In this document: positions 31,301-34,885 of the stretch, piece after piece
Layout of the letters: every line of letters starts with the position of its first letter
Numbering within the stretch: position 1 is the stretch's first letter
NCBI GenBank assembly: GCA_030425705.1
Contig: JAUHZU010000002.1
Location: forward strand, 310,001-374,000
Origin: Phycisphaerae bacterium
Lineage (GTDB): Bacteria; Planctomycetota; Phycisphaerae; Phycisphaerales; Phycisphaeraceae
Length of the DNA stretch: 64,000 nt
Reading direction: 5' to 3'
Notes under the pieces: model-generated
Told to the model about the DNA's origin: nothing
Databases searched by the model: none
What the model saw: the letters and a program-made list of their open reading frames with translations, nothing else
Made by a program: the position numbers and the translations under genes

Positions 31301-31394
31301 TCTGGACGAGGTTGGCCTTCATCGGGAAGGCGGTCTTGGGGAGGTTGAGCGTCTTCTTGTAACGCTTGGGGTCTTGGGTGGTGGTGTCGCTCAT
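28389..31394 (-). CDS. ileS: Isoleucyl-tRNA synthetase
   Basis: This class I synthetase charges tRNA-Ile. The 1001 residues contain the HIGH-type NGDIHLGHLLNK, the editing domain (about 200-420), KMSKSEGN, and the anticodon-binding helices. The C-terminal zinc site is degenerate: only the first Cys of the usual CxRCW...CxxC remains (RCERSW). Residues about 470-480 are encoded by an in-frame copy of a palindromic repeat. The segment 30230-30720 has lower GC than the rest. Upstream, a leader peptide rich in Ile codons and a terminator form an attenuator, so expression should rise when charged tRNA-Ile is scarce. Confidence 0.96.
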   Translation of the reverse strand: MSDTTTQDPKRYKKTLNLPKTAFPMKANLVQNEPASMKRWEKLDVYGKLRAKRKADAAPPFVFHDGPPYANGDIHLGHLLNKVLKDLVVRSQNMLGKDCPYTPGWDCHGLPIEHKVMQDLGDQARDMEPIQVRRKCKTYAEKFVKLQKGQMQRLLTMADYDDPYLTMLPKYEQGVLEVFAGLVDKGLVFRQLKPVHWSIANQTALAEAELEYYDKEDTSVFVMFDAEPYGIKCLPEEVWKHDVSFMIWTTTPWTLPANMAVAVHERADYGLYEINRNGKACFVVLATELATQVLAKEGLPSEKPRYTLKGSDLVGVRYHHPFIDRVSPVVSAEYVSMEDGTGLVHTAPGHGAEDYQTGQKFSLRFEGRRNTGDNGQVAWGDDDKFGKMNPTVYCPVKADGTYDDTVPDWLKGQHIFKANEQVVDHLRASGHLFHANRFMHSYPHDWRGKKPVIFRATEQWFVGVDKTFECLAGDAQRPAGSPTTLRDAAMHEAAERVKFLPEWGRNRMRGMLESRPDWCISRQRSWGLPIPAFFPPEGTGGEPLLTAASVRAVGEAFGKHGSDAWFVATPEQLLASYDATADPDAPQWVQSTDLKQLVRGTDTFDVWFESGSSWNAVMRHGWADKQAKQVDTDGKQLPGAFPTDLYLEGSDQHRGWFQHSLLPAVALHGQSPFKTVLTHGFMVDKDGRKMSKSEGNALKVEKLMEQFGADVARWWVCSLNTDNDIKADLSFFQLAGEEYRKVRNTLRFLLSNLDDFDPKQDAHTWTDADAASIDCWAMEAYVAFAEKVKADFDAFNFRAVSRALFNFCNDTLSAVYLFAVKDRLYCDAPGSARRRRTQSAIYRIASGLIRLLGPVCPHTADEAWRVLHGSDKDGGDCVHLETLPSCTGCGAIASLADPRWAEAMAQRDGWMKAIEDQRKALGVDNPLDLGLAVPGDFAGYDPADLADLCGVSRFVGGADTTTVTDLRTEPRCERSWKRDGTVRERSDGGLLSDRDAAALGV
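29956..29985 (-). repeat. Palindromic repeat arm inserted in frame within ileS
   Basis: The minus strand reads TTTAGCGGGCGACGCGCAGC at its start and matches the arms of the repeat at 42086-42165 at 26-27 of 30 positions. Read in the ileS frame it encodes CLAGDAQRPAG. From my memory of the family, this stretch is absent in other IleS proteins, just before the VKFLPEWGRNRM block. Confidence 0.75.
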
Positions 31395-31444
31395 GGTCGT
31401 GTTCTCGGGCTAACCGCTGCGGGCTGGTGGCTGGACGCACCAAC

Positions 31445-31469
31445 AAAAACCCCCGCCTCGCGGCAGGGG
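31445..31469 (-). terminator. Attenuator terminator in the ileS leader
   Basis: On the minus strand the 8-bp stem CCCCTGCC / GGCGGGGG (one G-U pair, loop GCGA) is followed directly by TTTTTGTT. It lies between the leader peptide and ileS. Its 5' arm can alternatively pair with GGTAGGG, which overlaps the leader-peptide stop codon, to form an antiterminator. Confidence 0.85.
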
Positions 31470-31502
31470 CTGCTGGGTTTGGATCGTGAAGAACCGCCCG
31501 CC

Positions 31503-31562
31503 CTACCGCTGGTCAGGGTCGCTAATGATAATCGCGATGATCGTGGGTTGGGCGTGGGTCAT
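31503..31562 (-). CDS. ileS leader peptide with Ile control codons
   Basis: The 19-codon frame reads MTHAQPTIIAIIISDPDQR and then TAG. Five of six consecutive central codons are isoleucine (ATC ATC GCG ATT ATC ATT). A ribosome stalled on these codons would leave the downstream GGTAGGG free to pair with the terminator's 5' arm. A ribosome reaching the stop codon would cover it and allow termination. This is the classical design of amino-acid leader peptides such as those of his or ilv operons, here in front of a synthetase gene. No Shine-Dalgarno sequence is present; TATACT lies 6 nt upstream. Confidence 0.85.
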   Translation of the reverse strand: MTHAQPTIIAIIISDPDQR

Positions 31563-31568
31563 GGCGTG

Positions 31569-31574
31569 AGTATA
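31569..31574 (-). promoter_or_regulatory. -10 box TATACT of the ileS leader
   Basis: TATACT ends 6 nt before the leader-peptide ATG, so transcription should begin at or near that A. The leader peptide would then be translated from a leaderless mRNA. Confidence 0.6.
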
Positions 31575-31622
31575 CCCGGAGTATCGGCCGACCGGCGCGG
31601 GGTGCTCCAAGTCCGCCGGGGG

Positions 31623-32948
31623 TTATGGAGCTTCGGCCATGACCTCCGGGGCGATCCAGTCCCAGGTCGGCCGGGCTTCGCCGGTGTCCAGCGTGAGGCC
31701 GGCCGTGTTGCGGGGGTGGATGCCTTCGCATCCGGTCTGGCTCGTGGCGATGGACCGTACTTGAGTCTCCCCGATCGGGGTGACTTCGCCTTCGTCGGAG
31801 ACGCCGTTGCTGTTGCGGTCGTGCCAGAGCGCGAGGCCGGCGAGTTCGTCGCCGGCGAGTCGGCCGTCGCGGTTGTTGTCGAGGGCGTCGAGGGCCTGGT
31901 AGCCGTCCTCGAAGAGCATGTAGAAGGTCATGTTGCCGAAGAGCTGTCGGCCGGACGTGATCCTGCCGGTGTGTTCGGGGTCCCACACGAGGATCGCGGT
32001 GTCGGGGCGGACCCACGGCCGACGCTCGGCGGTGCCGTCGGCGTCGAGGTCGAAGTCAACGACGAGCGACGGGTCGAGCAGCTCGTCCAGGTGCGTCGGC
32101 GTGTCGCCCTCGACGCGGAAGACGATGGGGGTAATGGCTTGGGGCTTGCTCTCGATCGCGGTGATGTCGGCGTGGATCTGCGCGACCAGGTCGGCGTCGG
32201 GCGCGTCCGTGCGGTACTCGGCCATGAGACGGAGGTAGGCCTTGCCCGCCTCGTACGCGATCGGCAGGAACGGGTGGAGCAGGTGGTCCTCGGCGAGGGC
32301 CGCCTCGCGGTGCAGCTCGTAGGCGCGCAGGTTCTCGTCGATCGCCCGGTCGATGTAGGTGTCGTACAGCGGGCGGTCGTCGGCCTCGTCCGCGGCAGGG
32401 GCATCGCCGTCTTTCGCTGAGCGTGGCGTGGCCTTGGGGTCCTCGGCGTCGTCTTCTTCCTCGGCGGGGGCGAGGTCGTCGAGCGGGCCGATGAGGTCCG
32501 CGTAGTCGGCGGACTGTTCGAGGATGCCCGCGAGTCCGAGGCGGTACAGCGCGTTGTCCTCGTCCAGGGCGATCGCCTGCAGGAACTGCGCGATCGCGGC
32601 ACGGGCGTGTGCGACCAGCGCGTCTTCCTCGAGGGTCTGGTGCTCCTCGGGGATCCACTGGATCTTCGGGTCGACGACGTCGGGCAGCTCGTCGGCGCTG
32701 CCGACGCCGCGGGAGAGGATCGTCTCGGACCGCTTGGCGAACGCGATGTAGTGGACCCGGGCGAGCAGGAAGTGGGCCTGCGCGTCGTCGGGGTGCTCAT
32801 CGAGGTAGGCGTTGAGGTTGTCGACCAGGCGTTCGACCGGGGCCTCGGGGGCCCGCAGGAACATACCGGCCGCGGGGGGCACGGCGGCGGCGGCGAGGGC
32901 GGCGGTGAGGGTGAGGGTGGCGAGCTTGCGGTAGATCGTGCGACGCAT
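31623..32948 (-). CDS. Exported protein with TPR-like repeats and EF-hand-like calcium loops
   Basis: The 441-residue precursor has a signal peptide (core about residues 12-32, cleavage near AAG). It continues with helical, TPR-like pairs (about 45-160, including DDAQAHFLLARVHYIA), an acidic linker, and a C-terminal region with two EF-hand-like loops: DNNRDGRLAGDE and DRNSNGVSDEGE. Calcium-binding loops of this dockerin-like type occur in many secreted planctomycete proteins. No catalytic motif was recognised. A GGAG site precedes the ATG. The stop lies about 50 nt upstream of the ileS leader promoter. Confidence 0.65.
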   Translation of the reverse strand: MRRTIYRKLATLTLTAALAAAAVPPAAGMFLRAPEAPVERLVDNLNAYLDEHPDDAQAHFLLARVHYIAFAKRSETILSRGVGSADELPDVVDPKIQWIPEEHQTLEEDALVAHARAAIAQFLQAIALDEDNALYRLGLAGILEQSADYADLIGPLDDLAPAEEEDDAEDPKATPRSAKDGDAPAADEADDRPLYDTYIDRAIDENLRAYELHREAALAEDHLLHPFLPIAYEAGKAYLRLMAEYRTDAPDADLVAQIHADITAIESKPQAITPIVFRVEGDTPTHLDELLDPSLVVDFDLDADGTAERRPWVRPDTAILVWDPEHTGRITSGRQLFGNMTFYMLFEDGYQALDALDNNRDGRLAGDELAGLALWHDRNSNGVSDEGEVTPIGETQVRSIATSQTGCEGIHPRNTAGLTLDTGEARPTWDWIAPEVMAEAP

Positions 32949-32976
32949 GGGGGGCTCCGGGTGGGTGGCGGGAGCG

Positions 32977-33513
32977 TTAGACGCGGGGGCCGGCGAGGAG
33001 TTCCCCGAGCGGCACGCTGACCCGGTCGAAGGCCCGGGCGGGGATGGAGACGGTGTCCCACTTGGCCGAGCGGTCGCGCATGTGGGTGGTGTAGTCGCTG
33101 AGCTTGACGGCGAGGACGGCGTACCAGCGCTCGCCGTACGCGAAGACCTCGTGGAACAGCGCGTCCGGCGGCTGGGCGTCGCACCAGAACAGGAAGGCGA
33201 ACGCGGGCTCGAAGTCCTTGCCGAAGATCTCCGACCACTTCGTGAGGGAGGTGACGTCGTCGCGGGTGACCCAGTTCTGGAACGATCGGCCGGCCGTGCC
33301 CGTGTGCTTGCGGCCCTTGACATCGACCAGCAGGTTCGGGCCCTTCTCGGCGTAGACGACGAAGTCGAAGCTCTTGAGCTTGGTGGGCAGGACCTTGGAT
33401 TGACGGTCGCCGGTGAGGGCGCGTTTGGCCTCGTCGACGGCGACGTAGGGGATGGCGTTGGCGCGGAGATAGTGCTCGAACGCGCGGTCGTAGTGGAAAC
33501 GCCGGTTGGCCAC
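32977..33513 (-). CDS. Possible PD-(D/E)xK nuclease-like protein
   Basis: The 178-residue protein begins ANRRFHYDRAFEHYL after a GTG start and contains KSFDFVVYAEKGPNLLVDVKGRK. The spacing of the Asp in FDFVVY and the DVKG pair resembles the PD-(D/E)xK nuclease core. I know similar proteins in other planctomycetes as conserved but uncharacterised. The GTG at 33513 was preferred to an upstream TTG because TACACT lies 8 nt before it and the conserved N terminus begins there. Confidence 0.6.
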   Translation of the reverse strand: MANRRFHYDRAFEHYLRANAIPYVAVDEAKRALTGDRQSKVLPTKLKSFDFVVYAEKGPNLLVDVKGRKHTGTAGRSFQNWVTRDDVTSLTKWSEIFGKDFEPAFAFLFWCDAQPPDALFHEVFAYGERWYAVLAVKLSDYTTHMRDRSAKWDTVSIPARAFDRVSVPLGELLAGPRV

Positions 33514-33592: not shown

Positions 33593-34885
33593 TTACAGAC
33601 GAAGTTGTTGCGCCAAATCGGTGATCGCGCACGGCGACTGCTCGCCGGTCGCGAGGTCCTTGACCTGTGCCTGCCCCTCGGCGGCGGTGTCGTCGAGGAG
33701 GACGGCGAAGCGGGCGCGGGCTTTCTCCGCGTCCTTCAGCAGCTTGCCGAGGTTGCGAGTCTGCTTGTAGCTCATGCGGGTGTGCAGGCCGGCCCGGCGG
33801 AGCGTGGCGACGAGCCCCGGGAGGTGTGTCGCGCCCAGGTCACTCGCCGCGAGGACAAACGCGTCGGGCGTCGGCGCGAGGTGCTCGGGGAGGAGCCCCT
33901 GGTCTTCGAGCAGGTTGGCGAGGACGACGTCGCCCATGCCGAACCCGACGCCGGACATCGCCGGCCCGCCGAACAGCTCGATGAGTTTGTCGTAGCGTCC
34001 GCCGCCGCCGAGCGCGCGTTCGTCGCTGACGGTGACGTGCAGCTCGAAGACGGTGCCGGTGTAGTAGGCGAGCCCGCGGACGATGCCCAGGTCGTAGGCG
34101 CACCAGTCGGCCAGGCCGAAGCCCGCGAGGGTCGCGTCGAGGGCGCGGAGGTCGGCCAGGTCGTCGTCGATGCCCGCCGCGTCGCGGAGCGCGTCGACAT
34201 CGCCGACGGCATATGTCTTGCCACACATCGCGTCGAAACGGGCGACTTGTTCTTTGCCGAGTCCGAGCGCGACGGCTTTGTCCGTGAACTGCTCTGGGGT
34301 CATCTTTCCTTTCGCGTCCAGCAGCGTGAACGCGTCCTGCATCTTGTCGTCGGCCACGCCCAGCGCCGCGAGGATCTGCCGCACCACCTCGCGGTGGCTG
34401 ATCCGGCACTGCACCATCGCCGGCGTCACGCCCAGCTCGGCCAGCAGGTCGCACGCGACGGCGATCACCTCTGCGTCCGCCAGGGGCGTATCCAGGCCCA
34501 GCAGGTCGACGTTCCACTGGTCAAACTCGCGCAGCCGGCCGCGCTGGTGGCGTTCGGCCCGACACATGTTGGGCAGCGCGAACCACTTGATCGGTCGGGG
34601 CAGCGCGTTGGCCCGCGCCGCGACCATCCGCGCGAGCGTCGGCGTGAACTCCGGGCGGATCGCGTAGTCCGTCGTGCCGTTGGCCCGGCGGAAGCTGAAC
34701 AGCTCGCTGACGATCCCGTCGCCGGACTTCACCTTGTAGAGGTCCAGCGTCTCGTAGATCGGCCCGTCGACCTCGTCGAACCCGTGGCGGACCGAGACGC
34801 GGCGCCAGGCGTCGTGGATATAGCGACGCCGCGCCTGGTCGTCGGGGTAGAAGTCGCGGGTGCCTTTGGGGCCTTGGAGTTTCAT
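33593..34885 (-). CDS. hisS: Histidyl-tRNA synthetase
   Basis: This class II synthetase charges tRNA-His. The 430 residues start with KLQGPKGTRDFYP, and motif 2 is seen in RAERHQRGRLREFDQWNVD. The adenylate-site RPEFTPTLARM and the His-binding VRGLAYYTGTVFE are present, followed by motif 3 (GFGMGDVVLANLLE) and the C-terminal anticodon-binding domain. The length is normal. The gene stands between a nuclease-like gene and a HAD phosphatase, all on the minus strand. Unlike ileS, no His-rich leader peptide is visible upstream. Confidence 0.96.
   Translation of the reverse strand: MKLQGPKGTRDFYPDDQARRRYIHDAWRRVSVRHGFDEVDGPIYETLDLYKVKSGDGIVSELFSFRRANGTTDYAIRPEFTPTLARMVAARANALPRPIKWFALPNMCRAERHQRGRLREFDQWNVDLLGLDTPLADAEVIAVACDLLAELGVTPAMVQCRISHREVVRQILAALGVADDKMQDAFTLLDAKGKMTPEQFTDKAVALGLGKEQVARFDAMCGKTYAVGDVDALRDAAGIDDDLADLRALDATLAGFGLADWCAYDLGIVRGLAYYTGTVFELHVTVSDERALGGGGRYDKLIELFGGPAMSGVGFGMGDVVLANLLEDQGLLPEHLAPTPDAFVLAASDLGATHLPGLVATLRRAGLHTRMSYKQTRNLGKLLKDAEKARARFAVLLDDTAAEGQAQVKDLATGEQSPCAITDLAQQLRL

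Follow-up and report, generated by a model that had tools for sequence, protein, structure and literature searches.

The window analysed here, a stretch of 64,000 nucleotides from a Phycisphaerae bacterium, carries on its minus strand an element in front of ileS that we interpret as a ribosome-mediated transcription attenuator, predicted to sense charged tRNA-Ile and to control ileS. We place the probability of this reading at roughly 0.9; the transcription start, the translation of the leader and the response to isoleucine are inferred. Such an attenuator would account for the parts of the element, for their constant arrangement and for its association with two isoleucine genes, and the comparison of related sequences supports the predicted leader, the position of its stop codon, both alternative helices, the terminator and the gene association. 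The parts in the window are as follows:

31574-31569, minus strand: -10-like promoter hexamer TATACT, ending 6 nt 5' of the leader ATG (from the sequence)
31562-31503, minus strand: leader ORF MTHAQPTIIAIIISDPDQR, 19 codons plus the stop codon TAG (from the sequence)
31554-31550, minus strand: 5' strand of helix P1, CGCCC, partner of 31499-31495
31541-31524, minus strand: control codons ATC ATC GCG ATT ATC ATT, five of the six being Ile
31509-31501, minus strand: 5' arm of the antiterminator, GCGGTAGGG, which includes the TAG stop codon
31505-31503, minus strand: leader stop codon TAG, within GGTAGGG (31507-31501)
31499-31495, minus strand: 3' strand of helix P1, GGGCG, directly 3' of the leader stop codon
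31469-31450, minus strand: GC-rich intrinsic terminator hairpin CCCCTGCC-GCGA-GGCGGGGG (from a terminator scan)
31468-31460, minus strand: 3' arm of the antiterminator, CCCTGCCGC, overlapping the 5' arm and loop of the terminator
31449-31445, minus strand: T-run of the terminator (from the sequence)
31394-28389, minus strand: ileS, isoleucine--tRNA ligase, the putative controlled gene (TIGR00392 equivalog)

The preliminary description of this DNA had proposed a 19-codon frame with five Ile among six codons, a U-tracted terminator hairpin at 31469-31445, a GGTAGGG segment that spans the leader stop and can pair with the 5' arm of the hairpin, and ileS starting at 31394 as the target. All of these hold on reanalysis. 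Ile makes up 5 of the 19 residues of the leader peptide, and the competing helix amounts in full to 9 pairs between GCGGTAGGG and CCCTGCCGC. The hairpin, with 10 pairs, 7 of them GC, is the strongest of 8 terminator-like sites between 27000 and 34000, a region whose shuffles contain 3.8 such sites on average. The IleS protein matches TIGR00392 with 783 bits (cut-off 621); its gene starts 50 nt after the T-run and 108 nt after the leader stop. A strict antiterminator-plus-terminator pattern finds the ileS site and one other site in the same genome (G000:C1:50264). The probable leaderless start, a helix for the ribosome-free state, the copy in front of cimA, the thrS relatives and the absence of the element from 36 of 58 genomes go beyond that description.

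In the proposed mechanism, transcription would start at or adjoining the leader ATG, and a ribosome would then begin on the leader. When charged tRNA-Ile is scarce, the ribosome would stall on the ATC/ATT cluster and open P1, leaving the stop-codon region free to pair with the 5' arm of the terminator once this arm has been made; no terminator would form, and RNA polymerase would continue into ileS. When tRNA-Ile is charged, the ribosome would reach the stop inside the antiterminator arm and mask that arm, whereupon the terminator would form and ileS would remain untranscribed. An attenuator of this kind should have an Ile-rich leader ORF, an intrinsic terminator between leader and gene, an antiterminator that is incompatible with the terminator and is covered once a ribosome reaches the stop, and counterparts in relatives with linkage to genes of the same pathway, here ileS and cimA. 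The element shows these four features, the antiterminator by sequence and folding only, with mixed results for equilibrium folding in the presence of a stalled ribosome.

The search for IleS covered 61 genomes, namely that of the window and those of relatives from the same genus, family and order; every one gave a match. The DNA upstream of ileS was read in 58 of them, the window's and 57 others; G004, G017 and G059 lacked a usable ileS start and were left out, and G031 was included with only about 200 nt of upstream sequence. Within 300 nt upstream of ileS, 21 of the 58 genomes have a short ORF in which a stretch of eight residues contains four or more Ile. Each of 20 dinucleotide-shuffled sets gives 0 or 1 such case in 58, and the opposite strand gives 3 of 58; when the rule is applied to other amino acids on the coding strand, Arg is the runner-up, at 10 of 58. 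A looser rule (three Ile in six residues, within 450 nt of ileS) yields 24 Ile-dense ORFs in 23 genomes, and a T-run terminator follows 22 of these ORFs. Without any selection by motif, the stop region (14 bases) pairs over 6 to 11 nt with the 5' arm of the terminator in 21 of the 22; the exception is L063, where the arm lies a few bases further along. The ileS start could be read in three further genomes of the genus, and their leaders are MTYAQPIIIAIMIDDPHR, MTNAQPIIAIIIGNPDQR and MPNAQLTLAIIISNPDQR.

An Ile-dense ORF with a terminator is thus found before ileS in 22 of the 58 genomes of the order, the window's included, so that the Ile-rich frame, terminator and competing stem that the preliminary description expected to find in relatives do recur. 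By family, the counts are 16 of 35 in that of the window (f1), 5 of 6 in f5 and 1 of 5 in f6, and none of 6, 5 and 1 in f2, f3 and f4, respectively. The other 36 of the 58 genomes read have no such element in front of ileS; it is not universal, which is a real limit. The ileS leader of one genome (L068 of G026) looks decayed: it reads MVTRPTQIRMAMIMMGRLL up to its stop, with Met at several positions, and its antiterminator arm is changed and its terminator retained. Four loci of f2 and one of f4 (L093-L096 and L101) and one of f5 (L106) have, before ileS, short ORFs with few Ile codons that end in x-P-[RL] and a stop, with a CCCC...TGAGGGG-like hairpin at the ORF stop and no T-run terminator seen.

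These counts also bear on the possibility that a translated leader works without the intrinsic terminator, either at the level of ileS translation (by coupling or reinitiation) or by way of Rho. The hairpin at the stop of an R-I-x-x-P ORF in L093-L096 and L101, and the lack of a visible T-run terminator in the stretches of these loci that were inspected, would suit such a mode of action, but 108 nt separate the leader stop from ileS in the window, and the T-run terminator after 22 of 24 Ile-dense ORFs, with an arm that pairs with the stop region in 21, leaves this explanation very improbable.

The preferred reading, a transcription attenuator, gains support from the recurrence of the element in front of a second isoleucine gene. 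A covariance model (R1) was trained on 17 ileS leaders only, without any cimA sequence; the model and its alignment A2 exclude L071 and L077, whose terminators were misaligned in alignment A1. Run over the class, this model matches 49 of 397 genomes at an E-value of at most 0.001. Among the 64 class matches listed, 48 were examined, one (G026:C8) is an already known ileS locus, and the remaining 15 include 14 partial matches. The gene 3' of the 48 examined matches is cimA in 36 cases, ileS in 8, thrS in 1 and none of these three in 3, where cimA denotes a relative of the CimA encoded by the window's genome. This protein is a citramalate synthase by TIGR00977 (609 bits, cut-off 450), and citramalate synthase catalyzes the first step of the threonine-independent isoleucine route. 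The genome of the window carries its own cimA copy of the element (L149, G000:C7:210688-210790), whose leader, MLQANAQIAAILAMTPPR, has only two Ile; further cimA leaders are MTTANASIIAIAIIITYPM, MSHSSIIAEIIMIPSHGR and MLNSTPIIIESIIITSPPTR.

One ileS copy lies outside the order, in G153 (L131). In a phylum-wide search, the model matched 19 of 392 genomes, and the ten matching genomes outside the order have E-values of 1.9e-5 or worse; in the four out-of-order loci that were read (L167-L170), a hairpin and a T-run are present and no Ile leader before ileS or cimA was seen. One of these loci (L169) lies about 250 nt 5' of an ORF resembling an isopropylmalate-synthase relative. Judged by the genes that follow it, the predicted element is tied to isoleucine genes, beyond ileS alone, and the presence of the same switch before ileS and the isoleucine-making cimA suggests that the cell probably raises both when isoleucine is scarce.

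The geometry of the element was compared over 57 loci chosen by hand (alignment A3), of which 55 could be used; L144, in which no ORF was found, and L160, with a gap in the arm, were lost. The stop codon sits at one fixed offset in the antiterminator arm (GG-TAG-GG) in 50 of the 55 elements, that is, in 18 of 21 ileS and 32 of 34 cimA elements. One of the five misses, L149, arose because the script chose the wrong frame; read in the correct frame, it fits. In 41 of the 55 elements, the last Ile codon lies 16 to 19 nt 5' of the antiterminator arm, which, given the usual ribosome footprint, would leave the arm free while a ribosome waits at this codon. The leader Ile codons over the 55 elements are 158 ATT, 97 ATC and 12 ATA; the ileS gene of the window shows 19 ATC, zero ATT and zero ATA.

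A TANNNT hexamer ends 4 to 13 nt 5' of the leader start in 42 of 53 elements, compared with a mean of 6.5 and a maximum of 14 over 200 shuffles. For this count, the start was taken as the nearest ATG giving at least about ten codons, which 53 of the 55 elements have; an earlier count of 41 of 51, which omitted L149, L068, L122 and L032, had used starts partly chosen by such a hexamer. The gaps between hexamer and ATG are mostly 6 to 10 nt. This placement suggests that most leaders probably begin at or adjoining the transcription start, and the -10-like box 6 nt before the ATG likewise makes the window leader probably leaderless, with transcription starting at or adjoining its ATG; both start sites are inferred without RNA data. 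A strict scan for consensus promoters before the window leader found no site.

The absence of a consensus promoter in that scan, the position of the hairpin between two genes on the same strand, and the 50 nt that remain between the T-run and ileS leave room for a different explanation, in which the hairpin merely terminates the upstream gene, the ORF is a chance frame and the ileS promoter lies downstream of 31445. However, other genomes have the leader, with its stop at the same position, and both helices in front of ileS or cimA, such Ile density arises by chance in only 0 to 1 of 58 genomes, and the class-wide link with two isoleucine genes already contradicts it. The 5' neighbour in the window (31623-33323) was not found by tblastn in any of the 22 named ileS loci, of which 19 include about 2 kb of upstream sequence and 2 come from other phyla, indicating that the hairpin is not simply the terminator of this gene. 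We consider this explanation scarcely tenable. The neighbour encodes a 566-residue protein without a Pfam match, and hisS (TIGR00442) is located further upstream, at 33593-34885.

For the attenuator, the outcome with and without a ribosome was predicted by folding 51 of the 55 elements (L149, L068, L156 and L122 were omitted), with the ribosome modelled as 31 blocked bases. When the ribosome occupies the stop codon, the antiterminator exceeds a probability of 0.5 in none of the 51 elements and the terminator does so in 50. When it occupies the first Ile codon and the 3' arm of the terminator is still to be made, the antiterminator exceeds 0.5 in all 51 elements. At full equilibrium, the terminator nevertheless exceeds 0.5 in 24 of 51 for a ribosome stalled at this codon and in 32 of 51 for one stalled at the last Ile codon. 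Since the terminator often wins at equilibrium despite the stalled ribosome, antitermination must be kinetic and set during transcription, a trait of classical attenuators. Without a ribosome, 42 of 51 elements terminate at equilibrium, yet the antiterminator forms first in 34 of 51, and the outcome predicted for this state varies among the elements.

For the window element, as long as the 3' arm is still missing, the antiterminator reaches about 0.75 while the ribosome is at codons 2 to 12; this value falls to 0.32 when the last Ile codon is occupied, and it is zero at every position between the Pro codon and the stop, both included. Without a ribosome, the terminator wins. At equilibrium, it also wins for a ribosome on four of the five Ile codons, with probabilities between 0.57 and 1.00; for the full transcript with the ribosome at the first Ile codon, it amounts to 0.03 or 0.30, depending on the 3' end used.

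Across the 57 elements, the terminator helix is kept in 98.2% of cells, and two of its pairs show changes in both strands. Pairing of the antiterminator reaches 92.4% of cells, compared with 30 to 53% when slid. The outer antiterminator pair is C-G in 23, G-C in 15 and A-U in 1 and unpaired in 13 of the 52 scored rows; the innermost pair is unpaired in 19 of 57, and of the 9 pairs 2 are invariant and five more vary little. For the antiterminator, the paired fraction and the covariation score lie above shuffles, but the numbers of doubly changed pairs and of pair types do not, since 307 and 417 of 500 shuffles, respectively, reach them; the covariation support is modest. In five f5 genomes, the corresponding position holds a different helix, in which GAGGCG(G) faces (C)CGCCTC and the stop is TGA. 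RNAalifold without a supplied structure chose the antiterminator on the ileS set, which was selected by motif, and the terminator on the larger set. Because the 19 sequences of alignment A1 were picked by the motif GG[TC]AGGG ... CCCTGCC, its helix counts are not independent, and the pairing of stop region and arm was retested without the motif, as described above.

The additional helix, P1, joins the Ile-codon region or the preceding codons with the bases directly after the stop. Over the 19 ileS elements, its mean duplex energy is -11.5 kcal/mol with the own partners and -10.1 kcal/mol with swapped partners, 125 of 20000 permutations being as good as the own partners; shuffled 3' strands give -7.5 and the next 15-mer -4.3 kcal/mol. 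As predicted from these pairings, P1 can hold the leader when the ribosome is absent.

T-boxes control ileS and other synthetase genes in Firmicutes and Actinobacteria. They do the same job, matching synthetase supply to tRNA charging, but the T-box RNA reads the tRNA directly. The T-box model RF00230, run with Infernal at stricter filters, matched none of 71 genomes of the order; in the controls, it found 5 of 14 genomes, Bacillus subtilis among them, 2 of them over the cut-off. Given this absence alongside the recovery of Bacillus subtilis, an identity as a T-box was rejected. Rfam searches gave no match in the window at the gathering score, and only chance-level matches over 31380-31650 at E-values up to 10; among seven related loci, the sole hit was a tRNA gene that lies downstream in L149. 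That the RNA switches without a translating ribosome, as a T-box-like or ligand-binding riboswitch with an incidental ORF, is hardly credible: the conserved P1 would be consistent with it, but neither an Rfam family nor a T-box was detected in these searches of the window and the order, and the reading frame, the Ile codons and the position of the stop codon are all conserved.

Ribosome-mediated attenuators control amino acid operons of proteobacteria, as in the trp, his, leu, thr and ilv leaders. The element proposed here resembles them in its leader peptide with cognate codons, its terminator, its competing antiterminator and the ribosome as sensor, whereas its stop codon lies inside the antiterminator arm itself, it is probably leaderless, and it targets ileS and cimA in Phycisphaerae. 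The pheST (pheM) attenuator of E. coli lets an amino acid control the gene of its own synthetase through a leader peptide; it is alike in this respect and differs in amino acid, RNA and phylum. Attenuators have been predicted for leuS and trpS of Streptomyces, which, as far as the accessible part of the source goes, share the leader control of a synthetase gene and differ in amino acid, RNA and phylum (PMC1262725). By analogy, and within the same limit, pheST of E. coli and the predicted Streptomyces leuS and trpS attenuators are the closest in function to our putative element. For actinobacterial ileS, the accessible part of PMC1262725 assigns unusual T-boxes and no leader peptide. The ilvB-II and ilvB-OMG motifs, insofar as PMC10272879 was accessible, share uORF-based attenuation with branched-chain codons but precede ilvB.

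The preliminary description knew of no peptide attenuation of ileS in planctomycetes. We likewise found no leader-peptide attenuator of ileS, cimA or thrS in the open-access literature, where sources were available in part and an earlier mention in the survey of Lopatovskaya 2010 (Mol Biol 44:128) is not ruled out, and none in Phycisphaerae, the accessible parts of PMC1262725, PMC4833913 and PMC10272879 included. The principle is classical; as far as the literature was searched, the targets, the lineage and the design with the stop in the antiterminator appear to be new.

Other genes of the class have leaders that resemble this element to different degrees. ORFs with at least five Thr in eight residues lie upstream of thrS in 12 of 30 loci read (L213-L219, L224, L230, L235, L240 and L242), compared with 0 to 1 in shuffles and 0 on the opposite strand; the 30 loci are the best matches of 70 genomes and are biased towards family f2. 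One such leader reads MHRPTTTTTTTTATRHRG up to its stop and is followed by a terminator. In its locus, the 160 residues downstream score 41.5 bits with the threonine--tRNA ligase model, below the whole-protein cut-off because they are only a fragment. By eye, several of the threonine-run leaders are followed by a GC-rich hairpin and a T-run. In the window's own genome, and by eye only, thrS is preceded by MASRHTTPATPTPTGTTPVPRPTL with its stop and a GGCCGCCC...GGGCGGCC hairpin, and ilvB (L243) by the branched-chain-rich MRLNRSALQIARANAVIAALILVM with its stop, directly after TATACT; the gene downstream in L243 is an acetolactate synthase (400-residue piece scanned).

No leucine leader was present among the short ORFs upstream of leuS in the window's own genome, and a valine-density rule did not pick out valS leaders. 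A conserved short ORF ending in -SVAVS and a stop was first spotted by eye (G000:C2:6435-6453, L203; upstream of valS in L171) and then searched for as a pattern: the 19-mer occurs in 13 of 51 genomes of the family and not in the reversed control. It is accompanied by GTCGCCGTTAGCTGAGGGG and, at its stop, by a GGGG-ACGA-CCCC hairpin. Inspection of valS stretches by eye revealed no T-run terminator, suggesting that the mechanism there may differ.

We regard it as reasonably likely that, in Phycisphaerae, a set of leader-peptide attenuators, related to one another and for the most part leaderless, with the stop codon in the antiterminator, serves as a standard way to match the supply of synthetases and isoleucine to tRNA charging, in place of T-boxes. 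The set in this broader proposal would comprise ileS, cimA, thrS and perhaps ilvB and valS. The list of attenuator targets gains two isoleucine genes and probably thrS, and we found no described case in the phylum. The fixed stop inside the antiterminator makes for a compact element that is easily found and can be tested with reporters. Ribosome-mediated attenuation needs a ribosome close behind RNA polymerase, and the internal membranes of planctomycetes have raised the question of whether transcription and translation are coupled in these bacteria. Given this need for a closely following ribosome, the leaders offer a direct test of such coupling in planctomycetes; if the class-wide proposal is true, transcription and translation would be tightly coupled in these organisms.
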